Position numbers and translations under genes: made by a program. Below are positions 4,493-16,141 of a DNA stretch of 64,000 nucleotides, one piece after another (the first letter of the stretch is position 1; the number at the start of each line of letters is the position of its first letter). Below the pieces are notes generated by a model, which saw only the letters and a list, made by a program, of their open reading frames with translations, ran no database searches and was not told where the DNA came from. The stretch is from Celeribacter neptunius (GTDB lineage Bacteria; Pseudomonadota; Alphaproteobacteria; Rhodobacterales; Rhodobacteraceae): positions 62,001 through 126,000 of the forward strand of contig NZ_FORH01000002.1 in the NCBI RefSeq assembly GCF_900113955.1, read 5' to 3'.

Positions 4493-5692
4493 TCACTCCT
4501 CCAGTTTCGGCGCGGTGATGCCGCCAAAGGCGCCCCCGAAGGCCGAGGGGCTTTCAGGTTTTGGTGCGGCGGGTTCAGCCGATTCCGGCGCAGGCGTCGC
4601 CCCGCCCAGCCCACCGAACGCGCCGCCAAAGGCCGAATTGGACTTGGGCAAGGTGCTTTGTTGCTTTTGCTCGGCTTCGATCCTGGCCTTTTGTGCTGCG
4701 CGCAACTCTTCCTGACGGTCGAGCTTTTCTTGCAGCACCGCCGCCTCGCACATGGAACTGTCATGGCGTGACCCGGCAAAGCTCACCACGGCGATGATCC
4801 CCACGAGAATGGCAAAGACCACCCCCGGATGGGTCAGCGCCCGGGTCACCGGATTGGCATAGAGCGGCGAGCGCGACGCCCGTCCGCCCATCTCCGCCTC
4901 CTTGCGGCGCTGATAGGCTTCGTTGGTCAGAGCCCCCACCAGGGTGATGGTGATGATGATCACCGCCAGCGCCGACAGCGAGGGATCGGTGCCGTGACGG
5001 ACTTTCGAGGCCAGCGCCGTGGTGAATGTGCTCTCGGAGAGCACGGTGAACACGGTGGTGTTGTAATTCTCGAAAGAGGCCAGAAGCGTGATGAAGGCGG
5101 CAGAGCCGATGGCGGGCGCCATGAAGGGCAAGAGGATCTTGCGAAACGCCTGTCCCGGCGTGGCACCCAGATCCAGCGCCGCCTCGGTCTGGGTCGCGTC
5201 AAAGCGCTGCAGACGCGCGATGAACACCAGCATGGCATAGGCGGAGATGAAGGTGATCTGGCCCACGATCGTGAGGAAATAGCCATTGTACAGCCCGCCT
5301 GCCCCGAACCCGCGCGAGATCTGGCCCCACAAGACGATGGTCGAGATCCCCAAGACAACGCCCGGGATCAGGATCGGCAGGATCAGCACGGTGTAGAGCG
5401 TGGCGCGGAGTTTCGAGGGCAGCTCGGAGAGCGCCAGAGCGCCGGCCAACCCGATCGGCACGGCGAGCGCCACCACGCCCGCGCCGATGATCACCGAGTT
5501 CAGGAGCCCGTCCATCAGGCGCTGGTTGCCGAACAACTCGCCGAACCAGCCGGTGGTGAAGCATTCCCATGGCACGACGCGCGGGAATTTCGACGAGTTG
5601 AAAGCGGTGATCACCATGATCACCAGCGGCCCGAACAGGAAGGAAAAGAAAGCCACGGCATAGGCGCCGCCGAAAAGCGTGTTGCGGTTCAT
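4493..5692 (-). CDS. ABC importer permease (PotC/PotI type) with a long extra C-terminal domain
   Basis: The first 265 residues are a normal spermidine/putrescine-type inner-membrane permease with six hydrophobic segments and the ATPase-docking motif EAALDLGATPGQAFRKILLP at 170-189. The protein then runs on to 399 residues, where PotC/PotI proteins end near 260-280. The extra part has a seventh membrane segment (289-306, VVFAILVGIIAVVSFAG), a charged, probably coiled-coil stretch (about 315-345) and a Pro/Ala/Gly tail in which SAFGGAFGG occurs twice (353-361 and 383-391). If the usual topology holds, the tail is periplasmic. The start is the ATG at 5692, overlapping the other permease by ATGA; the frame is open further upstream, but that is the shadow of the neighbour. 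Confidence 0.88.
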   Translation of the reverse strand: MNRNTLFGGAYAVAFFSFLFGPLVIMVITAFNSSKFPRVVPWECFTTGWFGELFGNQRLMDGLLNSVIIGAGVVALAVPIGLAGALALSELPSKLRATLYTVLILPILIPGVVLGISTIVLWGQISRGFGAGGLYNGYFLTIVGQITFISAYAMLVFIARLQRFDATQTEAALDLGATPGQAFRKILLPFMAPAIGSAAFITLLASFENYNTTVFTVLSESTFTTALASKVRHGTDPSLSALAVIIITITLVGALTNEAYQRRKEAEMGGRASRSPLYANPVTRALTHPGVVFAILVGIIAVVSFAGSRHDSSMCEAAVLQEKLDRQEELRAAQKARIEAEQKQQSTLPKSNSAFGGAFGGLGGATPAPESAEPAAPKPESPSAFGGAFGGITAPKLEE

Positions 5693-6612
5693 TTGCCGAT
5701 CTCCCCGACCGAGACCTTGAAGACCCGCATGGTCAACAACACAAAGGAGATACAGGTGAACAGCAGCACCACGGCATAGGCCGAGCCTCTGGGCCAGTTG
5801 GAGCTTTCGTTGAACCACTGATAGATCACCTGCGTGAACCACAAGGACGACGGCCCGCCCAAGATCTGCGGCGCGGCCAGTGCGCCTGCGGTGAGCATGA
5901 AGACCATGGTGGCGCCCGAGACGATCCCCGGCTTGGCAATCGGCAGGACCACCCGCCAATGTACCCGCCACAAGGGCGCGCCCATATCGCGCGCGGCCTC
6001 GACCTGGGTATGATCCAGCGCCTCGATGGCGTTGTACATCGGGAAGATCATCAACAGGATATAGGCGTAGGACAGGCCGAAATAGAGCGCCACATCGGCA
6101 CGGATGAAATCCACCGGCACGTCCCAGAGCCCGATCTGCATCCCGACCGTATTGACCACACCGGTGGCGCCAAAGAGCACGCGAAAGGCAAAGGCCCGCA
6201 GGATCTCGTTGATCCAATAGGGGATGATCAAACCGATCACCATCAGCCTTGCCGCGACGCCCTTGGCCCCATGTGCCAGAATATAGGCAATCGGGTAGCA
6301 GATCAGCACATCGATCAGCGTGACAATCACCGCCGCCACAATCGTGCGCAGCAGGATCATCAGATCGAGCGTGTTCACCGAGCCGTCATTGTTGAAGAAA
6401 AAGCTGCGATACTGATCGAGCGTGTAGTGATCCGCCTCTGTGCCGATCTGATCCGCTGGCAGGTTGAAACGGAAGGAATAATCGAGCATCGAGAGCTGCG
6501 GCAGGGTGATGAAGACCACCACCCAGAGCGTCACCGCAATGGCGACGAACAGCGCCGCCCCCATACCATGTTTCGCAAGCATCGTGTCATAGGCGAGTTT
6601 CAGCTGTTTCAT
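5689..6612 (-). CDS. ABC importer permease (PotB/PotH type)
   Basis: A 307-residue inner-membrane protein with six predicted membrane helices and the EAA loop VEAARDMGAPLWRVHWRVVL in its last third, which docks to the ATPase. A large periplasmic loop after the first helix (residues about 45-90) is typical of PotB/PotH. It overlaps the ATPase gene by ATGA upstream and the second permease by ATGA downstream, so all three are co-translated. Together with the binding protein it should import a small organic cation or zwitterion such as a polyamine; the aminotransferase and aldehyde dehydrogenase nearby make a 2-aminoethane sulfinate/sulfonate possible. Confidence 0.9.
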   Translation of the reverse strand: MKQLKLAYDTMLAKHGMGAALFVAIAVTLWVVVFITLPQLSMLDYSFRFNLPADQIGTEADHYTLDQYRSFFFNNDGSVNTLDLMILLRTIVAAVIVTLIDVLICYPIAYILAHGAKGVAARLMVIGLIIPYWINEILRAFAFRVLFGATGVVNTVGMQIGLWDVPVDFIRADVALYFGLSYAYILLMIFPMYNAIEALDHTQVEAARDMGAPLWRVHWRVVLPIAKPGIVSGATMVFMLTAGALAAPQILGGPSSLWFTQVIYQWFNESSNWPRGSAYAVVLLFTCISFVLLTMRVFKVSVGEIGK

Positions 6613-7727
6613 GTGTCACTCGCCATATCGGCCACCGGCAGGATGGTGGCGTTCATCGGCGCAAAACCGAGAGACAGGGTTTCACCGGCGGCAGGCAGGC
6701 TGCCCGCGAGCCCGGCATTGACCATGGAGACGCGCAATTCGCTGTCCCCCGCCTTGGCAAAGACATGGTTCGTGGCGCCCTCAAACTCCTGACGGGTGAG
6801 TGTCGCCTCGAACGCGTTGTCACCGGCGCCGGGAACAAGCTGTTCCGGCCGCACGAACAAAAGCGCCTTGTCCCCGGCCTTGTATTTGCGACCGCCCCCG
6901 ACCCGGGCCTCAAACGTCCCCATCGGTGTGTCGAGCGCCGCCGTCTCGCCGCTTTGCACCTTGATGACGCCCTGCAAGGCGTTGTTTTCCCCGACGAAAG
7001 AAGCCACGAAGGCCGAGCGCGGCCGGTTGTAGATCCGATCCGGTTCACCGACCTGCTCGATCACCCCCTTGCTCATCACCGCGACGCGGTCGGACATGGT
7101 CAACGCCTCGCCCTGATCGTGGGTGATGTAGATAAAGGTCACGCCCACCTGTTTCTGAATGGCGCGCAGTTCCGTGCGCATATGCTGGCGCAGCTTCAAG
7201 TCCAACGCCGAAAGCGGCTCATCGAGCAACAGGATATCCGGCTCCACCGCCAGCGCACGGGCAATCGCAACGCGCTGTTTCTGGCCGCCCGACAGCTCCG
7301 AGACCTTCTTGTCGCCAATCCCCGGCAGGGCGATCATCTCCAACAGCTCATCGGCCCGTTTGCGGCGCTCTTTCTTGGATACCCCGCGCACCTCGAGCGG
7401 AAAGGCGATATTATCGGCGACCGACATCAGCGGAAACAGCGCGAGATGCTGGAAAATCAGCGCAGTGGGGCGCTTGTTCGGACCGACACCGGCCATATCC
7501 TTGCCGCCGATCAGCACCTTGCCCTCGGTCGGCTCGGAAAAGCCGGAGATACAGCGCAACAGCGTGGTCTTGCCGCAGCCTGACGGGCCCAGGAAAGAAA
7601 AGAATTCGCCGGAATTGATCTTGAGATTGGCGTTGTCGACGGCGGTGAAATTGCCGAACCGGATGGAAACGTGATCGAGGAGGACGGAGCGATCCGGGGT
7701 CTGGTCGGGCCGGGATGTATCGGGCAT
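6609..7727 (-). CDS. ABC importer ATPase (PotA/PotG type)
   Basis: A 372-residue ATPase of the importer. Walker A GPSGCGKT is at 47-54, the signature LSGGQ at 145-149 and Walker B LLLDE at 166-170. About 110 C-terminal residues look like the TOBE domain found in PotA-like proteins. I start it at the ATG at 7727, which has AGAGAGG eight bases upstream and gives MPDTSRPD; the frame is open for 16 more codons without support. It lies 81 bases after the binding-protein gene, with a stem-loop in between (7758-7795), and overlaps the first permease by four bases. Confidence 0.92.
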   Translation of the reverse strand: MPDTSRPDQTPDRSVLLDHVSIRFGNFTAVDNANLKINSGEFFSFLGPSGCGKTTLLRCISGFSEPTEGKVLIGGKDMAGVGPNKRPTALIFQHLALFPLMSVADNIAFPLEVRGVSKKERRKRADELLEMIALPGIGDKKVSELSGGQKQRVAIARALAVEPDILLLDEPLSALDLKLRQHMRTELRAIQKQVGVTFIYITHDQGEALTMSDRVAVMSKGVIEQVGEPDRIYNRPRSAFVASFVGENNALQGVIKVQSGETAALDTPMGTFEARVGGGRKYKAGDKALLFVRPEQLVPGAGDNAFEATLTRQEFEGATNHVFAKAGDSELRVSMVNAGLAGSLPAAGETLSLGFAPMNATILPVADMASDT

Positions 7728-7757
7728 GTTGCCTCTCTTATGAATTGGATATGAAAA

Positions 7758-7795
7758 GGCCCCGCGCAGGCACATCCATGGGCGCGCGCGGGGCC
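7758..7795 (-). terminator. Stem-loop between binding-protein and ATPase genes
   Basis: A perfect 10-bp stem (GGCCCCGCGC at 7758-7767 with GCGCGGGGCC at 7786-7795) is followed on the minus strand by TTTT. It lies 13 bases after the binding-protein stop. I read it as a partial terminator or mRNA-end protector that gives more binding protein than membrane components. Confidence 0.7.
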
Positions 7796-7808
7796 AGATC
7801 TTCAGCGT

Positions 7809-8957
7809 TTAGGCAGAGAGGAACTTGTTGGTGAACTCGGTGCGCATTTCCGAGTACCACGGCGCCTCGGCCGGCCATGCGTTCAGGTTGGCCAGCGCCT
7901 CGCCCGGATAGGCATCGGCAAAGTTCTTGGCATAGATCTCGCCACCATAGGCATCGGCGCCCAGAACCGGCGAGTTGTAGCCATGGGTCTTGATCGCCTC
8001 ACCGGCCCATTCGGGGTTGTAGCAAGCGTCGATGAAGGCGTAGATCTGATCGATGTTCTTGGCCCCCGTGGGCATCGCCATACCGTCGACCCAGGCCATC
8101 GCGCCTTCGATCGGCGCGCGGTACATCACCGGCTCGCCTTCGTTCTTCAGCGCGATCGGCGGACCGTCCCAGGTCTGGCCGACCACGACGCCCTCGTTCA
8201 GAAGACCGTTCTTCTGGGTGTCGGCATCGTTCCAGATCAGCTTGATATTGCCTTTCTTTTCAATCGCGTGATCGACGAGCTTGGTCCAAACCTCGGTCAT
8301 TTTCTCGGGCGTCTCATAGGCGGCCCACATGGAGCCCGGCTCGAGCAGACCGAGGCGCTCCATGCCGAGGCCAAGCCCCAAGAGCATGGAGTGACCACGG
8401 CCCATGGTCTTGCCGGCGTTGGCATCGTCCCAGATGTCATAGTAGGACGGGAATTCGCCCGCGGGCGTGAACATGTCGGTGCGCCAGGCGACCCCTTCGG
8501 TGCCCCAGATATGCGGCACCCAGCAGGTGCCCCCGAAGTTCCAGTGTTTCTCCCCCAGGGCCATCGCCGGGTTCACCTTGGTGATGTCGATCTTCGACAT
8601 GTCGAAGGGCTGCAACAGGCCCAGCTCGGCCCAGAGAAGGTTGCGGTTCACGGTCGGCGAGACGATGTCGAAGCCCTCGCCACCGGTGGCCTTGAGCTTG
8701 TTGATGATCTCTTCGTTGGAGCCGATGCCGGTAAAGTTGAGCTTGATCCCGGTGGCGCCTTCAAAGGCGGTCACGAAGCTTTCCGGCAGGTAGTCGGACC
8801 ACATCATCACGTTGATCTCGCCCGACGAGGCCAGAGCGGAACGGCTCACGATGGCCGGGGCCGCGATGCCGCCCAGAACCGTCGCCGTGCCCTTCAGGAA
8901 CGAGCGGCGTTTGAGACCGCCCGCTTGTGAAACCGTGGTGGATTTGAGTTTTGTCAT
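7809..8957 (-). CDS. Extracellular solute-binding protein, spermidine/putrescine type
   Basis: A 382-residue periplasmic binding protein of the PotD/PotF class (type 2 fold). The N terminus carries a twin-arginine signal: R17-R18-SFLK, then a hydrophobic stretch and an Ala-x-Ala site near residue 43, so export by Tat in folded form is likely. The mature part opens with INVMMWSDYLPESF, typical of the family. The start at 8957 has GGGGAG close upstream; the frame is open 40 codons further, but that part crosses the untranslated leader. First gene of the importer operon, divergent from the MocR regulator. The leader carries a MocR-type direct repeat (9078-9110). Ligand not settled: polyamine by family, hypotaurine/taurine by context. 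Confidence 0.9.
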   Translation of the reverse strand: MTKLKSTTVSQAGGLKRRSFLKGTATVLGGIAAPAIVSRSALASSGEINVMMWSDYLPESFVTAFEGATGIKLNFTGIGSNEEIINKLKATGGEGFDIVSPTVNRNLLWAELGLLQPFDMSKIDITKVNPAMALGEKHWNFGGTCWVPHIWGTEGVAWRTDMFTPAGEFPSYYDIWDDANAGKTMGRGHSMLLGLGLGMERLGLLEPGSMWAAYETPEKMTEVWTKLVDHAIEKKGNIKLIWNDADTQKNGLLNEGVVVGQTWDGPPIALKNEGEPVMYRAPIEGAMAWVDGMAMPTGAKNIDQIYAFIDACYNPEWAGEAIKTHGYNSPVLGADAYGGEIYAKNFADAYPGEALANLNAWPAEAPWYSEMRTEFTNKFLSA

Positions 8958-9291
8958 GTCACTCCCCGTGAACTTTCTTTGCGTTGTCTTGATCTTGTCT
9001 TGTTGTTTTGTTCTGCGCAGCTCCGGGAGCCCCGAAAGCCGCTCGCACATCAGCCTAGGAGTGGCCCAAACGCCCAATTTAGAGCCAGAATTGCGAAACT
9101 ATGGGGCCAGAGGGGCTTTCCCCACTGGACGCCCGCGCCCTGCACAATAGAGTGGCGCTAACAGGGCGCAGCTGCCCGCCGAGCGAGCAGGATCAGGACC
9201 GGAAATCTGCCCCGAAAACCGGACTTGGCCCGCCCGCGACGACCGCAATGACCGCGCCCCTCCCAAAGCGCTTGCAAGATGAGACAAGACG
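8958..9291. other. Intergenic regulatory region between importer and MocR regulator
   Basis: This 334-bp divergent region holds no convincing gene. On the importer side lies a T-rich stretch (8975-9015 on plus) that becomes an A-rich untranslated leader. The MocR-type direct repeat is at 9078-9110. On the regulator side GC-rich DNA leads to the ATG at 9292. Short open frames here have no ribosome site and no family features. Confidence 0.7.
9078..9110 (-). promoter_or_regulatory. Candidate MocR operator upstream of the importer (direct repeat, 22-bp period)
   Basis: Read on the minus strand, CTGGCCCCATA starts at 9110 and CTGGCTCTAAA starts at 9088, exactly 22 bp apart. The same half-sites with the same spacing occur before the aminotransferase (12395-12427) and, more weakly, before the aldehyde dehydrogenase (12309-12341). 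MocR-family regulators bind direct repeats with dimeric winged-helix domains, and the motif resembles the CTGGAC-type repeat I recall for R. capsulatus TauR. Confidence 0.55.
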
Positions 9292-10764
9292 ATGCTGGAT
9301 CGCTATTTCGATGCGCCGTTCAATGACAGCGCCTCGCTGCAACATCAGATTCAGGAACGCCTGATCCAGGCCATTCTCGACGGCGCGGTCTCGCCCGTCG
9401 ATCCGCTGCCCTCGTCGCGGGTCTTCGCGCAGCGGCTCAAGGTCTCGCGCAACACGATCTCCATCGTCTATGAGCGGTTGCATCAGGACGGGTTCATCAC
9501 CGCAAAACCACGGCGCGGTTATTTCATCGATGAGAATTTCGTGCGCGAAAAGCTCGATGTCGCGCCGCCGCGGCATCGCCCGGGCGGCAATACCGCGCCG
9601 GATTTCGCGGCGATGATGCCGCATCGGTTCAGCACCCAGGAAAATATCGAGAAATTGCCGGACTGGCGGCGTCACCCCTACCCGATGATTTTCGGTCAGG
9701 TGGCGCGCGATGATATTTCGGTGGCGCGCTGGCGCGATTGTCTGCGCCGTGCCGGTACCTCGCGCCATGTCGGAACCTGGGCCGACGATCTGATCAACAG
9801 CGACGATCCGCTCTTGTTGGAACAAATCGCCCGCCGGGTGCTGCCACAGCGCGGATTTCGCGCCTCGCCCGATGAGCTCCTGATCACCGTGGGCGCGCAA
9901 AACGCGCTCTGGATGGTGGCGACGCTGTTTCTCGCCCCGGGCAAGTCGATCCATATCGAGGACCCGGGCTATGTCGATGCCCGCAACATCTTCCTGTCGC
10001 AGGATTGCGAGGTCCTCCCCGTGCCGATCGACCGCAACGGGTTGAAACCCGGACCCGGGCTCGCCGTGGCCGATATGGTCTATGTCACGCCGGGGCATCA
10101 GTCGCCGACCAATGTCACCATGCCGATGGAGCGGCGTCTGGCGCTTCTGGAGGCGGCGAACCGGCATGATTTCCTCATCCTCGAGGATGATTACGAGCAC
10201 GAGCTGAATTTCGTCGGCGCCCAGCACCCGACCTTGAAAGCGCTTGATGCCAATGGCCGGGTGATCCATGTCGGCTCACTCACCAAACCGCTGTTTCCCG
10301 GCATCCGTCTCGGCTTTGTCGCCGCCGACCGCGAGGTGATCCACGAGCTGCGCGCATTGCGGCGGCTGATGTATCGTCATCCTTCGGCGCTGGCGCAACG
10401 CGCCATGGCGCTGTTCCTGTCCGAGGGCCATTACGATGCCCATATCCGTCGGCACCGTCGCGGCATGGCGGAGAAATGGCGGGTGATGCTGCGCGAACTC
10501 GACCGGCAACTGCCGGATTGCGAGGGCACGATGACTACCGGCGGCTCCGGCATCTGGCTCGCCCTGCCGGAAAACGTCAGCGCGGCGGCGGTGAAGCAAG
10601 CCGCGTTGGAGCGCGGCGTGGTGGTCGAGGACGGGACATTGTTCTACATGCGCGAAGATGCGCCACAGAACCGGCTGCGGCTTGGCTTCGGCGCCATCGA
10701 TCTCGCCAAGATCGCCCCCGGCGTGGCCGAGCTGAAGGCCGCGATCGACAGCGTCCGACCGTGA
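9292..10764 (+). CDS. MocR-family (GntR-aminotransferase fusion) transcription regulator, TauR-like
   Basis: A 490-residue regulator. Residues about 15-80 form a GntR winged helix (LPSSRVFAQRLKVSRNTISI then FITAKPRRGYF), followed by a linker and a fold-type I aminotransferase domain that binds pyridoxal phosphate through K332 in GSLTKPLFPG. Such proteins (GabR, PdxR, TauR) sense an amino compound as an aldimine and switch nearby promoters. It is transcribed away from the ABC importer and towards the convergent aldehyde dehydrogenase, and its likely sites lie before the importer, the dehydrogenase and the aminotransferase. The inducer is probably the imported amine. TauR/hypotaurine regulator is the best guess; a polyamine sensor is the alternative. 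Confidence 0.9.
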   Translation: MLDRYFDAPFNDSASLQHQIQERLIQAILDGAVSPVDPLPSSRVFAQRLKVSRNTISIVYERLHQDGFITAKPRRGYFIDENFVREKLDVAPPRHRPGGNTAPDFAAMMPHRFSTQENIEKLPDWRRHPYPMIFGQVARDDISVARWRDCLRRAGTSRHVGTWADDLINSDDPLLLEQIARRVLPQRGFRASPDELLITVGAQNALWMVATLFLAPGKSIHIEDPGYVDARNIFLSQDCEVLPVPIDRNGLKPGPGLAVADMVYVTPGHQSPTNVTMPMERRLALLEAANRHDFLILEDDYEHELNFVGAQHPTLKALDANGRVIHVGSLTKPLFPGIRLGFVAADREVIHELRALRRLMYRHPSALAQRAMALFLSEGHYDAHIRRHRRGMAEKWRVMLRELDRQLPDCEGTMTTGGSGIWLALPENVSAAAVKQAALERGVVVEDGTLFYMREDAPQNRLRLGFGAIDLAKIAPGVAELKAAIDSVRP

Positions 10765-10785
10765 GTCATTTCTGAAGTTCCGCCC

Positions 10786-12276
10786 TCAATCCATTGCAAT
10801 CACGATGGTTTTCGAGCGCGTGAAATGCGCCAGCATGGCTTCGAGAGAGGCTTCCTTGCCCAAGCCCGAACGCCCGAAACCGCCATAGGAGACATTCGGC
10901 TGGATCGTCAGGTTCTGGTTCACCTGCACATAGCCGGCGTGGAGCCTTGAGGTGGCATCGAGCGCCCGCGACAGGTTTTCGGTCCAGACCGTGGCGGCGA
11001 GCCCATAGCGGCTGTCATTGGCCCGGGCGATCACATCGTCGTAATCCGACCATTTCTGGATCACCGCGACCGGCCCGAAAATCTCGTCTTGCACGCAGGC
11101 GTGATCCTCCGGCAAGTCAAGCAAGAGCGTCGGCATGGCGAAGAGATCGGGCGAGAGACCCATGCCCACCGGCGGCTGGCCACAGCGGACAACGGTGGCG
11201 CCTTCGGTCGCTTCCGCCTCGGCGACATAGCCCGCGACCACGGCCGCCTGTTTGGCATTGATGATCGTGCCGATATCGGTCGCCTCATCGAGCGGATCGC
11301 CGATCACCAATTGGTCGAGCTCGGCCCGCAGTGCCGCGATGAACGTCTCATAGAGGCTCTCATGCACATAGATGCGCGATGCGGCGGTGCAGCTTTGGCC
11401 CTGACGGGTGAAGCGCATGCCGGACATCGCACCGGCAACGGCTTTCTCGAGGCTCGCATCTTCACAGACGATCATCGGGCTTTTGCCGCCCAATTCCAGT
11501 GACACCGGCACGATGCGTTCGGCCCCGGCCTTGTAGACCGTTTCGCCCACGGCTTCGGAGCCGGTGAAGGTGATCTTCGCAACATCCGCATGCGCGGTCA
11601 GCGCCGCGCCACACTCCGCCCCGGTGCCATTGATCACGTTGAGCACCCCGTCGGGCAGGTATTGCATCAGGATCTCAGCGGCGAGATAGGTGGCAAAGGG
11701 GGCCTCTTCCGAGGCTTTCACCACCGCCGTATTGCCCGCCACCAGCGCCGGTGCGATTTTCAGCATCATCAGCACCAGCGGCACGTTCCAGGGCACGATG
11801 GCGGCGACCACGCCCAGTGGCTCCCGCGTCGTCATGGTGAGCATGCGCGGGCTGAACGGAATGGTTTCACCTTTCAGCTCAGAACCCAAACCGCCATAGA
11901 ATTCAAGGATATCTGCGGCGGTCTTCACCTCACCACGGCATTCGGTGCGGATGGCCTTGCCGGTCTCGCGCGCCAGCACCTGCGCGACAATCTCGAAATG
12001 CTCCAGAAGCGCCCGACCGGCGGCGGCCACCGCCTTGCCCCGCGCGCGCGCCGGTGTGGCGGCCCAAAGGGGACCGGCCGCTTTCGCCGCTTTCACCGCC
12101 TGATCGACCTCCGACGCGCCCGAGGCCGCCGCCTGCCCGAGCACCGCACCGGTGGCCGGGTTCAGCACATCGAGCCCCCGGATGACCGGCACATGGGCGC
12201 CGCCCACGAGGTTGAGGTTGCGGTAAGCGGCAATCGCCGCCTGCGGATCGGTGGGTGGGGTGAAAATCTGGCTCAT
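10786..12276 (-). CDS. NAD-dependent aldehyde dehydrogenase
   Basis: A 496-residue enzyme of the ALDH superfamily that oxidises an aldehyde to its acid with NAD(P). The general base is E261 in ELGGKSP, the catalytic cysteine is C296 in GQSCTAASR, and the Rossmann PWNVPL block is present. I start it at the ATG at 12276, which has AAGG eight bases upstream; an ATG six bases earlier is too close to it. It converges with the MocR gene (21-bp gap) and diverges from the aminotransferase. By analogy with the Paracoccus hypotaurine pathway it would oxidise acetaldehyde to acetate; an aminobutyraldehyde or succinate-semialdehyde substrate is also possible for this family. Confidence 0.88.
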   Translation of the reverse strand: MSQIFTPPTDPQAAIAAYRNLNLVGGAHVPVIRGLDVLNPATGAVLGQAAASGASEVDQAVKAAKAAGPLWAATPARARGKAVAAAGRALLEHFEIVAQVLARETGKAIRTECRGEVKTAADILEFYGGLGSELKGETIPFSPRMLTMTTREPLGVVAAIVPWNVPLVLMMLKIAPALVAGNTAVVKASEEAPFATYLAAEILMQYLPDGVLNVINGTGAECGAALTAHADVAKITFTGSEAVGETVYKAGAERIVPVSLELGGKSPMIVCEDASLEKAVAGAMSGMRFTRQGQSCTAASRIYVHESLYETFIAALRAELDQLVIGDPLDEATDIGTIINAKQAAVVAGYVAEAEATEGATVVRCGQPPVGMGLSPDLFAMPTLLLDLPEDHACVQDEIFGPVAVIQKWSDYDDVIARANDSRYGLAATVWTENLSRALDATSRLHAGYVQVNQNLTIQPNVSYGGFGRSGLGKEASLEAMLAHFTRSKTIVIAMD

Positions 12277-12308
12277 ACCCATGTCCTTGCCCGAAATCCG
12301 CGCCGCGC

Positions 12309-12341
12309 CTAGGGGCCAGAATTTCGAAATGATGAGTCCAC
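12309..12341 (-). promoter_or_regulatory. Candidate MocR operator upstream of the aldehyde dehydrogenase
   Basis: On the minus strand GTGGACTCATC begins at 12341 and CTGGCCCCTAG at 12319, again 22 bp apart. The first half-site is degenerate, but the stretch between matches the importer site closely: TTTCGAAATTCTGGC here and TTTCGCAATTCTGGC there. The downstream half-site ends 32 bases before the start codon. Confidence 0.45.
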
Positions 12342-12394
12342 TGGCATGATCGGTTTTTCTTGCCGAATTTTGACCAATCGATATAAAACATGCA

Positions 12395-12427
12395 CTGGCC
12401 CAATAAAACTTGAACGCTGGCCCTATA
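12395..12427 (+). promoter_or_regulatory. Candidate MocR operator upstream of the aminotransferase
   Basis: CTGGCCCAATA at 12395 and CTGGCCCTATA at 12417 form a direct repeat with a 22-bp period, two helical turns, ten of eleven bases identical. It ends 54 bases before the start codon of the aminotransferase. It is the best preserved of the three copies. Confidence 0.6.
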
Positions 12428-12481: not shown

Positions 12482-13855
12482 ATGCACGACAATGATCTCT
12501 CCGCCATCGTCGAGGCCGATCGCGCCCACGTCTGGCACCATATGTTCCAACACCAGCTTCTGGAGAGCCGCGATCCGCGGATCATCGTCGAGGGCAAGGG
12601 CATGACCGTCTGGGACCAGAACGGCCGTGAATTCCTCGATGCCGTCTCCGGCGGCGTCTGGACGGTGAACGTCGGCTATGGCCGCGAACGCATCGCCAAT
12701 GCGGTGCGCGACCAGCTCTTGAAGATGAACTATTTCGCGGGCTCCGCGGGGTCCATCCCGGCGGCAAAATTCGCCGAGGTGCTGACCGCGAAAACCCCCG
12801 GATTGAGCCGCATGTATTACTGCAACTCTGGCTCGGAAGCCAATGAAAAGGCTTTCAAAATGGTGCGTCAGATCTCGGCGCAACGCTACGGCGGCAAGAA
12901 ATCCAAGATCCTTTATCGTGACCGCGATTACCACGGCACGACGATTGCCACGCTCTCGGCCTGCGGCCAGGAGCAGCGCGCCAGCCATTACGGCCCCTTC
13001 GTGCCGGATTTCGTCCCCGTGCCGCATTGTTTGGAGTATCGCAAACAATGGGACGTCGAGAATTACGGTGAACGCGCTGCCGAGGAGATCGAGGCCATCA
13101 TCCTGCGCGAAGGCCCGGACACGGTCGGCGCGCTCTGCCTCGAGCCGGTGACCGCCGGCGGTGGCGTGATCACCCCGCCCAAGGGCTATTGGGAGAAGAT
13201 CCAGGAGATCTGCCGCAAATACGACATCCTGTTGCATATCGACGAGGTGGTCTGTGGCATGGGCCGCACCGGCACCTGGTTCGGCTATCAGAACTACGGC
13301 ATCGAACCGGATTTCGTCACCACGGCAAAGGGCGTGGCCTCCGGCTATGCCGCCATCGCGGTGATGCTGACCTCGGACCGGGTGTTTGACATGTTCAAGG
13401 ACAAGCCCGAGGACCCGCTGAATCATTTCCGCGACATCTCGACCTTTGGCGGCTGCACCGGCGGTCCGGCGGCGGCGTTGGAAAACGTTGCGATCATCGA
13501 GGAAGAGGGCCTCCTGGAAAACACCAAGGCCATGGGCAAACGTCTGATGGACGGGCTCGACGCGCTGATGGACAAACATCCGCTGATCGGCGACACCCGT
13601 GGCAAGGGCCTGTTCTGCGGCGCCGAGCTGGTGGCCGATCGCGAAACCAAGGAGCCTCTGTCCGAGAAGCTGGTGCAGGCGGTCGTGGCCGAATGCGACA
13701 AGCAGGGCGTGATCATCGGCGCCACCATGCGCTCGCTGCCCGGCTTCAACAACACGCTGTGTTTCTCGCCGGCGCTGATCTCGAAAGAGGACGATATCGA
13801 CCGCATCCTCGACGCGGTGGACAATGGCCTCACCACGGTGGCGGCCGCGATGTAA
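12482..13855 (+). CDS. tpa: Class III aminotransferase, taurine/hypotaurine-pyruvate type
   Basis: A 457-residue PLP enzyme. K283 in TTAKGVASG is the Schiff-base lysine, and IDEVVCGMGRTG is the usual Asp-containing segment. The stretches DAVSGGVWTVNVGYGRERI, SGSEANEKAFK, RDYHGTTIATLSACGQ and RDISTFGGCTGGPAAALE agree closely with what I remember of taurine-pyruvate aminotransferases. The same enzyme in Paracoccus acts on hypotaurine, giving alanine, sulfite and acetaldehyde. The ATG at 12482 has GGGAG just upstream; an upstream in-frame ATG at 12410 overlaps the operator and is rejected. No sulfoacetaldehyde acetyltransferase (xsc) is in this window, which favours hypotaurine over taurine. A general omega-amino-acid transaminase remains possible. 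Confidence 0.8.
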   Translation: MHDNDLSAIVEADRAHVWHHMFQHQLLESRDPRIIVEGKGMTVWDQNGREFLDAVSGGVWTVNVGYGRERIANAVRDQLLKMNYFAGSAGSIPAAKFAEVLTAKTPGLSRMYYCNSGSEANEKAFKMVRQISAQRYGGKKSKILYRDRDYHGTTIATLSACGQEQRASHYGPFVPDFVPVPHCLEYRKQWDVENYGERAAEEIEAIILREGPDTVGALCLEPVTAGGGVITPPKGYWEKIQEICRKYDILLHIDEVVCGMGRTGTWFGYQNYGIEPDFVTTAKGVASGYAAIAVMLTSDRVFDMFKDKPEDPLNHFRDISTFGGCTGGPAAALENVAIIEEEGLLENTKAMGKRLMDGLDALMDKHPLIGDTRGKGLFCGAELVADRETKEPLSEKLVQAVVAECDKQGVIIGATMRSLPGFNNTLCFSPALISKEDDIDRILDAVDNGLTTVAAAM

Positions 13856-13886: not shown

Positions 13887-14648
13887 TTACGCCTCGTCGA
13901 TCGACGGGGCGTTTTCTTGTGAAATGGCGCCGCTCTCTTCCTTCAACCCCGTTCCCGTCAGCCCACGCTCCAGCGCGGCGCGGGAGAGCCACGCAATCTT
14001 CTCCGCCGCCTGATCGTAGCTCATGCCGCCCTTGCCATGGATGTTCGACAGGCAGTTGCGCTGGCTGTCCTTCACTCCCGGCTTGGGATCATAGGTCAGG
14101 TAGGCACCGAGGCTGTCGGCCACGGTGAGCCCGGGGCGTTCCCCGACCAAGAGCACCACGAGACGCGCGCCGAGCACCTGCCCGATCTCGTCGCCAATCG
14201 CCACACGTGCCTCGGAGGCCACCACCACAGGACCGAAGCTCAGCCCCTCGAGCCTAGCCGACGCTGCATGGACCACCGCCGCCGCGTGCGCCTGCACCGC
14301 CGCCGAGGACAGACCATCGGCAATGACGAAAGCCACATCGCAGGGCGTGCGAGCGTTGAGCTTCTCCGCCTCGCCCGTCGCGAGCTTGCGGCCGAGATCG
14401 GGACGGCGCAGATAGCTGGCCCGATCCGACGCGGCGGAGTTGACGCGGATCACCTCGAAGGGCTGGAGCCCCGCCGCCAAAGCGTCGAGATCGAGCGGCG
14501 AATGCACCGCATCGCGCGCCCGGGCATGGGCGAATTGAAACTCGAGATTGGCGCCGGTGGGCAGGCCCGCGCCGGTGCGCCCCAGGGCGATGCGCGCGGG
14601 GGTGGCCTGTCGCAGCGCCGCCCATTTGTCGCGCATAAGATCGCTCAT
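13887..14648 (-). CDS. eutC: Ethanolamine ammonia-lyase small subunit EutC
   Basis: The 253-residue light chain of adenosylcobalamin-dependent ethanolamine ammonia-lyase, which with EutB splits ethanolamine into acetaldehyde and ammonia. Family marks visible are the N-terminal TPARIALGRTGAGLPT, the FVIADGLSSAAVQAHA block and the SLGAYLTYDPKPGVKDSQRN segment near the C terminus. It overlaps eutB by an ATGA. No microcompartment shell genes, EutR, EutH or EutA reactivase are visible nearby. The last codons overlap a terminator serving the opposite strand. The acetaldehyde could be used by the aldehyde dehydrogenase at 10786-12276. Confidence 0.93.
   Translation of the reverse strand: MSDLMRDKWAALRQATPARIALGRTGAGLPTGANLEFQFAHARARDAVHSPLDLDALAAGLQPFEVIRVNSAASDRASYLRRPDLGRKLATGEAEKLNARTPCDVAFVIADGLSSAAVQAHAAAVVHAASARLEGLSFGPVVVASEARVAIGDEIGQVLGARLVVLLVGERPGLTVADSLGAYLTYDPKPGVKDSQRNCLSNIHGKGGMSYDQAAEKIAWLSRAALERGLTGTGLKEESGAISQENAPSIDEA
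13889..13916 (+). terminator. Terminator of the aminotransferase gene, inside the eutC 3' end
   Basis: ACGCC and GGCGT enclose the self-complementary CGTCGATCGACG with one mismatch, followed by TTTTCTTG on the plus strand. It lies 34 bases after the aminotransferase stop and covers the last codons of eutC on the other strand. The minus-strand transcript also runs into T-rich sequence (CCTTTTCTTTC), so it may serve both genes. Confidence 0.7.
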
Positions 14649-16027
14649 TGCGCCGCCTCCAAAAGCCGCTGTGCGCCAATGCCACTGTCCAACAGGTGCC
14701 CGGTCTCGCTGACCAGCCCCATGGAGGTGAGCCAGGCCTCGAATTCCGGCGCCGCTTTCAGCCCGAGAGAATTGCGCAGATAGGCAATGTCATGGAAGGA
14801 CAGGCTTTGGTAATTCAGCATGATGTCATCGGCGCCGGGCACGCCGATCAGGAATTGCGCCCGGGCGTCCGCCAAGAGCGTCATCAGCACATCCATGTCG
14901 TTCTGATCGGCCTCGGCATGGTTGGTGTAACAGACGTCACAGCCCATCGGCAGGCCGAGAAGCTTGCCACAGAACACGTCTTCGAGCCCGGCGCGGATGA
15001 TCTCCTTGCCATCGTAGAGGTATTCCGGCCCGATGAAGCCCACCACCGTGTTGACGATCAGAGGATCATAGGCGCGACAGACCGCATAGGCACGAGCCTC
15101 GAGCGTCTGTTGATCGATGCCGTGATGCGCGTCCGCCGAGAGCGCAGAGCCCTGCCCGGTCTCGAAATACATGACATTCTGGCCGACCGTACCACGCCCG
15201 AGCGACAGTCCCGCCTCATGCGCCTCTTTCAACATCGCGAGCGTGACGCCAAAGCCCTCGTTCGCCGCTTCGGTGCCGGCAACGGATTGGAACACCAGGT
15301 CCAGGGGCGCGCCGCGCTCGATGATCTCGATCGAATTGGTGACATGGGTCAGCACGCAGCTTTGCGTCGGGATCTCGTAGCGCTGTCGCAGCTCGTCGAG
15401 CATGTCCAGAAGCACCATGGCGGTGGGGATATTGTCGGTGGCCGGGTTGATGCCGATCACCGCGTCACCCACCGCGTAGCTCAACCCATCGAGTGTCGAG
15501 GCGACGATGCCCTTCAGGTCATCCGCCGGATGATTGGGTTGTAGCCGCGAGCCGATCCGGCCCTCGAGCCCCAAAGTGGAGCGAAACGCGGTAATGACAC
15601 GGATCTTGCGGGAGACCGCGATGAGATCGCGATTGCGCATGAGTTTCGACACGGCGGCGGCCATTTCCGGCGTCAATCCGGGGGCAAGCGCCGCGAGCGT
15701 TGCGGTGTCCGCGGCATCGGAGAGGAGCCAATCTCGGAACTGCCCGACGGTCATATGCGCCACGGGGACAAAGGCGTCGGCGTCGAATGTGTCGACGATG
15801 AGCCGGGTCACCTCGTCCTGCTCATAGGGAATGAGCAGCTCTTCGAGAAAGGCTTTCAAGGGCAGATCGGCCAACACCATCTGGGCGGCGACACGCTCGA
15901 CATCGCTCTGGGCGATGAGACCGGCAAGCGCATCGCCCGAGCGCGCGGGCGTCGCCTTGGCCATGACCTCGGCCAGATCGGAAAACCGGAATGTCTCGCC
16001 GCCGAGACTGCATCTGTAGGCGCTCAT
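14645..16027 (-). CDS. eutB: Ethanolamine ammonia-lyase large subunit EutB
   Basis: The 460-residue heavy chain of ethanolamine ammonia-lyase, close to the usual 453-465. The TIM-barrel segments are recognisable: VGDAVIGINPATDN, the FQSVAGTEAANEGFGV block and ETGQGSALSADAHHG. It binds ethanolamine and the adenosylcobalamin cofactor with EutC. I start it at the ATG at 16027 (MSAYRCSLGG), which has GGAG close upstream; the frame is open 27 codons further without family similarity. First gene of a two-gene operon. The cobalamin need implies B12 synthesis or uptake elsewhere. Confidence 0.93.
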   Translation of the reverse strand: MSAYRCSLGGETFRFSDLAEVMAKATPARSGDALAGLIAQSDVERVAAQMVLADLPLKAFLEELLIPYEQDEVTRLIVDTFDADAFVPVAHMTVGQFRDWLLSDAADTATLAALAPGLTPEMAAAVSKLMRNRDLIAVSRKIRVITAFRSTLGLEGRIGSRLQPNHPADDLKGIVASTLDGLSYAVGDAVIGINPATDNIPTAMVLLDMLDELRQRYEIPTQSCVLTHVTNSIEIIERGAPLDLVFQSVAGTEAANEGFGVTLAMLKEAHEAGLSLGRGTVGQNVMYFETGQGSALSADAHHGIDQQTLEARAYAVCRAYDPLIVNTVVGFIGPEYLYDGKEIIRAGLEDVFCGKLLGLPMGCDVCYTNHAEADQNDMDVLMTLLADARAQFLIGVPGADDIMLNYQSLSFHDIAYLRNSLGLKAAPEFEAWLTSMGLVSETGHLLDSGIGAQRLLEAAQ

Positions 16028-16141
16028 GCTCCGCCATATCCTGTCGTATCTTGATCTCTCTCCCGCGACCCTAACGCGACGGCGGGCGAAGGCCCGTCTT
16101 TTCGTCACCCGCCCGGCACCGACGAGGGGCTTGCCCCTTTT

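Follow-up and report, generated by a model that had tools for sequence, protein, structure and literature searches.

What links a PotD/PotF-like ATP-binding cassette (ABC) importer, an aldehyde dehydrogenase and a class III aminotransferase to the gene for a MocR-type regulator that lies among them in the marine bacterium Celeribacter neptunius? We addressed this question in a 64,000-nucleotide stretch of the 4.4-Mb genome (the window; G000:C9:62001-126000), in which the genes follow one another in the order importer (4493-8957, minus strand), regulator, dehydrogenase and aminotransferase. An earlier note on this DNA had proposed that three direct repeats with a 22-bp period place these genes in one regulon. 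The sites, their spacing, their conservation and their co-occurrence with the regulator are established by computation. They make it probable that the three sites are operators of a TauR-like MocR protein, which would switch on the genes that import a two-carbon (C2) amino-sulfur compound, transaminate it, oxidize the aldehyde and export the product.

Three direct repeats with a period of 22 bp

All three sites can be read directly in the sequence where the earlier note had placed them, and in each an 11-mer recurs at exactly 22 bp. On the minus strand, the importer site runs from CTGGCCCCATA at 9110 through the spacer GTTTCGCAATT to CTGGCTCTAAA at 9088, and the dehydrogenase site from GTGGACTCATC at 12341 through the spacer ATTTCGAAATT to CTGGCCCCTAG at 12319. 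The aminotransferase site, on the plus strand, consists of CTGGCCCAATA at 12395, the spacer AAACTTGAACG and CTGGCCCTATA at 12417. The boxes have the form CTGGMYCTA, and the full operator pattern is CTGGMYCNATA-N11-CTGGCYCTA. A description of the half-sites as CTGGC-like is right in general, except that box1 of the dehydrogenase site starts with GTGGA. The importer and dehydrogenase sites had also been said to share a TTTCG stretch between their boxes. This stretch is real in the window, but TTTCG-AATT is present in 2 of 34 importer and dehydrogenase sites, both of them here, so that most of the extra similarity is coincidence, and we discarded it as a separate element. At spacer positions 2-4, TTT is found in 20 of 22 importer sites and 9 of 12 dehydrogenase sites. 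An additional single half-site, CTGGCATGATC, lies on the plus strand at 12341-12351; it starts where the minus-strand dehydrogenase operator has its first base.

How unusual such a pattern is depends strongly on its length. The short core CTGGM-N17-CTGGM, allowing one mismatch, matches the window 24 times against 24.0 expected, and the exact core pair occurs 80 times in the host genome against 90 for the reversed pattern; because it shows no surplus over these controls, the core alone proves nothing and we set it aside as evidence. By contrast, the full pattern with up to three mismatches has two matches in the window against 0.04 expected, and a pattern fitted post hoc to all three sites has three against 0.06. 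Genome-wide, the full pattern has two perfect matches (importer and aminotransferase), none with one or two mismatches and four with three. These six are not above the ten of the reversed control, so that at this scale the perfect matches alone carry weight. We kept one three-mismatch match (L189) as a probable site of a GNAT acetyltransferase gene; of the others, two (L190, L192) are within longer open frames and one (L191) is within a 129-codon frame.

Conservation was scored in 23 loci with a window-type MocR gene (13 Celeribacter and 10 Rhizobiales-type), using the fixed box CTGGMYC, a pair score out of 14, a threshold of at least 11 for a clear site and periods from 8 to 59. The importer site is present in 22 of the 23, among them Rhizobiales-type loci whose regulator is 56-58% identical; the exception, L063, lacks an orthologous importer. 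Of the 13 Celeribacter loci, 12 have a clear dehydrogenase site, and in all 12 the distance between box1 and the start codon is 64-65 bp; L047, the thirteenth, reaches a score of 10, and a degenerate pair can be made out there by eye. A clear aminotransferase site is found in 9 of these 13. The earlier note had held that lack of conservation in orthologous intergenic regions would speak against its proposal; the sites are kept at the importer and the dehydrogenase, and the aminotransferase site is not conserved in 4 of the 13 Celeribacter loci.

A period of 22 was the best at each of these promoters: at the importer its mean score was 13.17 against 10.47 (standard deviation (sd) 0.30; 23 loci), at the dehydrogenase 12.23 against 9.73 (sd 0.35; 13 loci) and at the aminotransferase 12.08 against 9.99 (sd 0.33; 13 loci). 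Period 22 thus stands about 6 to 9 standard deviations ahead of the other periods, an excess that should be read as a contrast rather than a probability because related loci are not independent. In an alignment of the importer region (17 of the 23 loci, 406 columns), 18 of 20 invariant columns fall inside the operator. The operator sites are still present in L181, where the gene order is interrupted and about 9.6 kb separate mocR from the dehydrogenase. In G152 (L164, from 2099), mocR is split into two open frames, which may reflect a sequencing error or a recent loss; the importer and dehydrogenase operators are retained.

Sites at distant genes and in related lineages

We searched 20 Celeribacter genomes for the pattern with up to two mismatches and found 32 matches, all of them in the 13 genomes that carry a window-type MocR. 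The seven genomes without this regulator gave no match at that threshold, and the reversed pattern gave none. By position, 13 matches precede the importer, 6 the aminotransferase, 3 the dehydrogenase, 4 a GNAT acetyltransferase gene and 1 a TauE/SafE-family gene; the other five (L203, L217, L218, L219, L220) fall within long open frames, and we left them out of account. The GNAT gene is divergent from a gene for a 2-oxoglutarate (2OG)-Fe(II) oxygenase, and in the host genome its site has three mismatches. It is probably a member of the regulon, if its start codon is the one assumed from the conserved start of the protein; with earlier starts some mechanically called frames would cover the site.

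The TauE/SafE-family gene provides a fairer test of co-occurrence, since genomes with and without the regulator have it and since its contig is a different one (in G167 the distance is 1.2 Mb). Its promoter scores 12-13 at period 22 in all 13 genomes with a window-type MocR, and it carries a site in none of six genomes without one (scores 8-9); G166 gave no match to the gene. The host genome has this site too, the promoter being at G000:C18:165524. Here, too, period 22 stands out (12.23 against 9.85, sd 0.35). In G155, a genome without a window-type MocR, an 85% identical aminotransferase is retained and its promoter is devoid of the site.

Profiles built in one lineage predict sites in the other. 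Using the boxes of nine Rhizobiales-type importer sites, the window's importer site ranks first and its aminotransferase site second. Conversely, with a profile from 30 Celeribacter sites the importer site takes top rank in each of the nine Rhizobiales-type loci that have an importer, and in eight of those nine a site upstream of an AptA-type aminotransferase is among the top three; L056 has no such gene next to its regulator. In L063 the site upstream of the AptA-type gene ranks first. The AptA-type enzyme is 27-31% identical to the aminotransferase of the window and not orthologous to it, and both proteins tested (L055, L060) pass the AptA cut-off. All nine existing AptA-type promoters have a 22-bp pair scoring 13-14 of 14, and period 22 again exceeds the others (13.78 against 10.63, sd 0.44). 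The regulator's predicted site is thus kept between lineages while the aminotransferase beneath it differs. In L055 (10971-12877), a YdfG-like short-chain dehydrogenase/reductase (SDR; under cut-off) and a TIGR03364 (HpnW, over cut-off) flavin adenine dinucleotide (FAD) oxidoreductase are divergent from the AptA-type gene across its operator; a YdfG-like SDR is likewise found in L060.

Taken together, the conservation of sites and period, the prediction across lineages, the co-occurrence at a distant gene and the match of the box to the TauR consensus give good support to the proposal that importer, dehydrogenase and aminotransferase belong to one MocR regulon, and the regulon is wider than first described. 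The direct TGG boxes at a near-constant spacing of whole helical turns, with period 22 best at the importer, dehydrogenase, aminotransferase, TauE/SafE and AptA promoters, are those of a MocR-type operator. The features of the window are collected in the table below. Immediately 3' of the aminotransferase lie genes for the ethanolamine ammonia-lyase subunits EutC and EutB (13887-16108, over cut-off), followed by a TetR gene. EutB adjoins the aminotransferase in all 13 Celeribacter genomes with a window-type MocR that we examined, and neither of the window's two full-pattern matches stands upstream of EutC/EutB. Acetaldehyde from EutBC could be a common substrate for the aldehyde dehydrogenase.

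Table. Genes, operators and predicted promoter elements of the locus, in window coordinates.
Feature	Position	Strand	Remarks
Importer permease, PotC/PotI-like	4493..5707	-	family profile matches
Importer permease, PotB/PotH-like	5689..6612	-	family profile matches
Importer ATPase	6609..7727	-	family profile matches
PotD/PotF-like binding protein of importer	7809..8957	-	all NCBIfam matches under cut-off
Predicted -10 (TAGGCT) of importer promoter	9052..9057	-	31 bp from start of box2
Importer operator	9078..9110	-	box1 9110-9100, spacer, box2 9088-9078; read directly
Possible mocR promoter	9125..9153	+	CTGGAC (9125-9130), 17 bp, TAGAGT (9148-9153); putative -35 and -10
MocR-type regulator	9292..10764	+	GntR helix-turn-helix and class I/II aminotransferase domain; residue 332 is the lysine of GSLTK
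Aldehyde dehydrogenase	10786..12276	-	73% identical to one in a Donghicola cluster (L118) with a TauR-like gene
Dehydrogenase operator	12309..12341	-	box1 12341-12331, box2 12319-12309; read directly
Aminotransferase operator	12395..12427	+	box1 12395-12405, box2 12417-12427; read directly
Class III aminotransferase	12482..13855	+	shares 67-75% identity with aminotransferases encoded near TauR-like regulators (in 20 of the 61 loci L065-L125, plus L182 and L183)

A regulator related to, and distinct from, TauR

The regulator has the two parts that define MocR proteins, an N-terminal GntR winged helix and a class I/II aminotransferase-like domain with a pyridoxal phosphate (PLP) lysine: PF00392 and PF00155 both match over cut-off, and the lysine at residue 332 lies in GSLTKPLFPGIR, a motif whose form was matched by 43 of 53 extracted regulators. 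Among 150 genomes of the family, the best match outside the host genome is 42% identical. In the genus, 13 of 20 genomes carry a window-type regulator (74-100% identical), and a fourteenth match, in G159, is only 37% identical. The best 80 of 126 regulator loci in named genomes fall into three groups: 9 Celeribacter proteins at 78-83%, 10 at 53-58% (Agrobacterium, Martelella, Stappia, Labrenzia, Roseibium, Jiella and one unassigned metagenome-assembled genome) and 61 at 37-42%. In a midpoint-rooted tree, whose long branches leave the deeper joins unsure, the window and Rhizobiales-type regulators group together (100/99); the L182/L183 TauR-like gene and 17 other TauR-like rows fall outside this group. 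The regulator is therefore not TauR itself; it belongs to a separate clade. G154 carries regulators of both kinds, its TauR-like copy with one internal stop.

The suggestion that the motif resembles the TauR repeat is borne out by the CTGGMYCTA boxes, which agree with the published TauR consensus CTGGACYTAA (PMC5320631). According to the same source, TauR is a MocR-type activator of taurine dissimilation in Rhodobacter capsulatus (PMC5320631, citing Wiethaus 2008); it also describes direct repeats at a distance of two or three helical turns for several MocR proteins, and a head-to-tail dimer. Box type, direct repeats and domain architecture are thus common to both regulators as TauR is described there, and their targets are of like kinds (aminotransferase, TauE-family gene, transporter); among the kinds of taurine gene that TauR regulates (tauABC/tauMLK, tpa, xsc, tauE), a Tpa-like aminotransferase and a TauE/SafE-family gene carry sites here. 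The two differ in that the window-type regulator is 37-42% identical to the TauR-like proteins compared, none of them experimentally proven, in that the importer here is of the PotD/F type, in that no Xsc passes the cut-off in the host genome, and in a spacing of exactly 22 bp, against 23 bp upstream of the aminotransferase in L182 and L183. The L182 regulator gene has a TauE-family gene on one side and the aminotransferase on the other, followed by a binding protein with a TIGR01729 score of 144.7 bits (cut-off 304). Across the 61 TauR-like loci, the box on the divergent strand has period 22 as its best (10.80) and 23 as the next (10.54), the rest being about 10.0, a much weaker contrast than in window-type loci. 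Five loci (L079, L081, L086, L099, L120) combine a 38-39% identical MocR with an importer whose parts are 56-65% identical; they have a 22-bp CTGG pair (scores 11-12) upstream of the binding protein and 23-bp pairs upstream of the regulator.

Other described MocR regulators resemble this one in part. TauR2, as described in PMC5320631, likewise has a TauR-like motif and a regulon with tauE and a COG1012 aldehyde dehydrogenase; its regulons also hold oppABCDF, COG523, COG1574 and TRAP genes, none of which turned up among the sites that we classified. OapR is likewise a MocR regulator of an omega-aminotransferase in alphaproteobacteria. Its Rhizobiales motif is given there as three boxes of alternating direction, whereas our Rhizobiales-type loci have two direct boxes, a separate search for an inverted third box not having been made. 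The NCBIfam PdxR model NF052282 matches the regulator marginally (321.8 bits, cut-off 320; 308.3 for the TauR-like L182 protein). No examined site was seen before a gene of PLP biosynthesis or salvage, the flanks having been read by eye and PLP genes not searched for. The PdxR name is likely a misannotation because the apparent targets are not vitamin B6 genes. No title or abstract listed in our literature searches deals with the regulon; the supplement of PMC5320631 or RegPrecise may hold an earlier prediction.

Promoter geometry, substrate and alternative readings

The position of the importer operator suggests how the regulator would act. Counted from the start of box2, a TANNNT-like hexamer follows at offset 31 in the 13 Celeribacter importer loci, where its weighted score is 4.5 and the mean 1.43; in nine Rhizobiales-type loci the offset is 30 (4.81, mean 1.52). 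With this conserved -10 after it, box2 would take the place of a -35 element, at about -43 to -33 relative to the predicted start. An activator in contact with RNA polymerase would be placed in this way, so that the regulator most likely activates, as is reported for TauR. A head-to-tail dimer of the protein encoded between the sites would read the two boxes, 22 bp apart, on one face of the helix. A further block on the importer strand, CACTCTATTGTGCA, is largely kept in 10 Celeribacter rows of the importer-region alignment; judged by eye, it is off the 22-bp period and resembles the mocR promoter, and we rejected it as a third box. The predicted regulon would comprise the PotD/F-type importer, the Tpa-like aminotransferase, the aldehyde dehydrogenase, the distant TauE/SafE-family gene and probably the GNAT acetyltransferase. 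A C2 omega-amino sulfur compound would be imported, transaminated to an aldehyde and oxidized, and the product exported, as sulfite if the compound is hypotaurine or as sulfoacetate if taurine serves for its nitrogen. Binding by the regulator, activation, ligand and substrate are what we infer from these arrangements.

Several observations weigh against this model or narrow it. In the host genome the dehydrogenase site, which the full pattern does not cover, is weaker than the other two; with the Rhizobiales-type profile it ranks fifth as a full 33-mer and falls outside the top ten with boxes only, and when the spacer is included two unrelated window positions rise above the aminotransferase site, which drops to fourth. 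In L049, L051, L052 and L163 the aminotransferase promoter scores 9-10, at background, with no pair standing above it. Because the importer site adjoins mocR, the importer's share of the co-occurrence is partly trivial. The TauE/SafE genes in five of the six MocR-less genomes are 55-60% identical and only that of G155 is close (73%), which weakens the contrast, since divergence of the gene may explain part of it. At the aminotransferase promoter (nine clear loci) the -10 signal, at 32, is weak. Box2 of the dehydrogenase operator lies about 32 bp from the start codon with no -10 hexamer at the expected offset, making activation there doubtful. The conserved EutBC neighbour is unexplained by such a regulon. 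Finally, the binding protein is PotF-like, the substrate call rests on gene families and linkage, and gene families do not separate hypotaurine from taurine.

Two alternatives concern the sites themselves. That they are chance or functionless relics of copied promoter DNA is very improbable: CTGG pairs at 22 bp are common in the host genome, but the two full-pattern matches far exceed the 0.04 expected, and Celeribacter and Rhizobiales-type bacteria share the sites although the rest of their intergenic DNA has diverged. It is also improbable, if a little less so, that another MocR of the genome, a true TauR, uses them in place of the adjacent regulator. TauR-like regulators do use the same CTGG box at 22-23 bp; however, only 3 of 20 Celeribacter genomes, the host genome not among them, have a relative of the L182 TauR-like gene (E <= 1e-110), and the operator at the TauE promoter goes with the window-type MocR, being present in 13 of 13 genomes that have it and 0 of 6 that do not.

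The substrate is a question of its own. A C2 amino-sulfur compound is favoured by the similarity of the aminotransferase and the dehydrogenase to enzymes encoded near TauR-like genes, by the operator before the TauE/SafE-family gene and by the presence of the same importer near TauR-like regulators in L079, L081, L086, L099 and L120. Paracoccus denitrificans reportedly degrades hypotaurine with an aminotransferase and an inducible aldehyde dehydrogenase, the aminotransferase being, as is said, likewise of the Tpa type, and by gene kind alone this enzyme set is the one found here. Tentatively, hypotaurine may be the compound, transaminated, spontaneously desulfinated to acetaldehyde and oxidized to acetate, with a TauE-type protein exporting sulfite; the operator before the TauE/SafE-family gene fits such a route. 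The same genes fit taurine-nitrogen use, and acetaldehyde and sulfoacetaldehyde dehydrogenases are not separable here. Neptuniibacter caesariensis uses taurine nitrogen through the dehydrogenase SafD and exports sulfoacetate by SafE. A corresponding route from taurine as nitrogen source, with a transaminase, a SafD-like dehydrogenase and a SafE-like permease, is somewhat more doubtful. It is favoured by the Donghicola cluster L118, in which a TauR-like gene is accompanied by ABC genes that by eye look like tauABC, by a TauE/SafE-family gene, and by an aminotransferase and a dehydrogenase 72% and 73% identical to those of the window, with operator-like pairs before dehydrogenase, aminotransferase and regulator; the importer here, however, is PotD/F-like. 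The host genome has no Xsc over cut-off, as either route would have it, but no control genome passed either, so that Xsc is uninformative across the genus. A polyamine or ordinary omega-amino acid (putrescine, gamma-aminobutyric acid or beta-alanine), with the TauE/SafE-family permease exporting something else, is rather unlikely. The PotD/PotF matches of the binding protein and the AptA-type omega-aminotransferase under the operator in Rhizobiales-type relatives favour it. In PotF, the Asp of WAGD has a role in ligand binding; it is not kept in the window's binding protein, where WDGP is aligned. The similarity of the window's aminotransferase to those near TauR-like regulators and the operator at the TauE/SafE-family gene also argue against this reading, and compared with a C2 amino-sulfur compound putrescine seems the less likely substrate. 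Less likely, too, is 2-aminoethylphosphonate, suggested by a PhnT2-like ATPase and by the TIGR03364 oxidoreductase of L055. The binding protein has no PhnS-family match, and its best Pfam family is PF13416, with PF13343 at 21.7 bits (cut-off 24.6); the 2-aminoethylphosphonate-binding proteins described in PMC8316502 belong to pfam13343.

The locus adds a member to the TauR-like kind of MocR operator already known. On a broader reading, which we hold as a doubtful possibility, a MocR group distinct from TauR has kept the TauR box with a rewired regulon, in which the PotD/F-type importer is the nearly constant element: a Tpa-like aminotransferase, dehydrogenase and distant TauE/SafE-family exporter in Celeribacter, an AptA-type aminotransferase in the Rhizobiales-type bacteria. 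It would be a dedicated regulon for the import and catabolism of hypotaurine or another C2 amino-sulfur compound and, if true, would identify the importer of such a regulon. The substrate question can be tested with one protein and a few 33-bp DNA probes. The locus offers a sharply defined operator and a predicted regulon with a distant member, tying the importer to an amino-sulfur-type pathway in marine bacteria, and it may be a case in which a regulator keeps its DNA site while the aminotransferase beneath varies by lineage.

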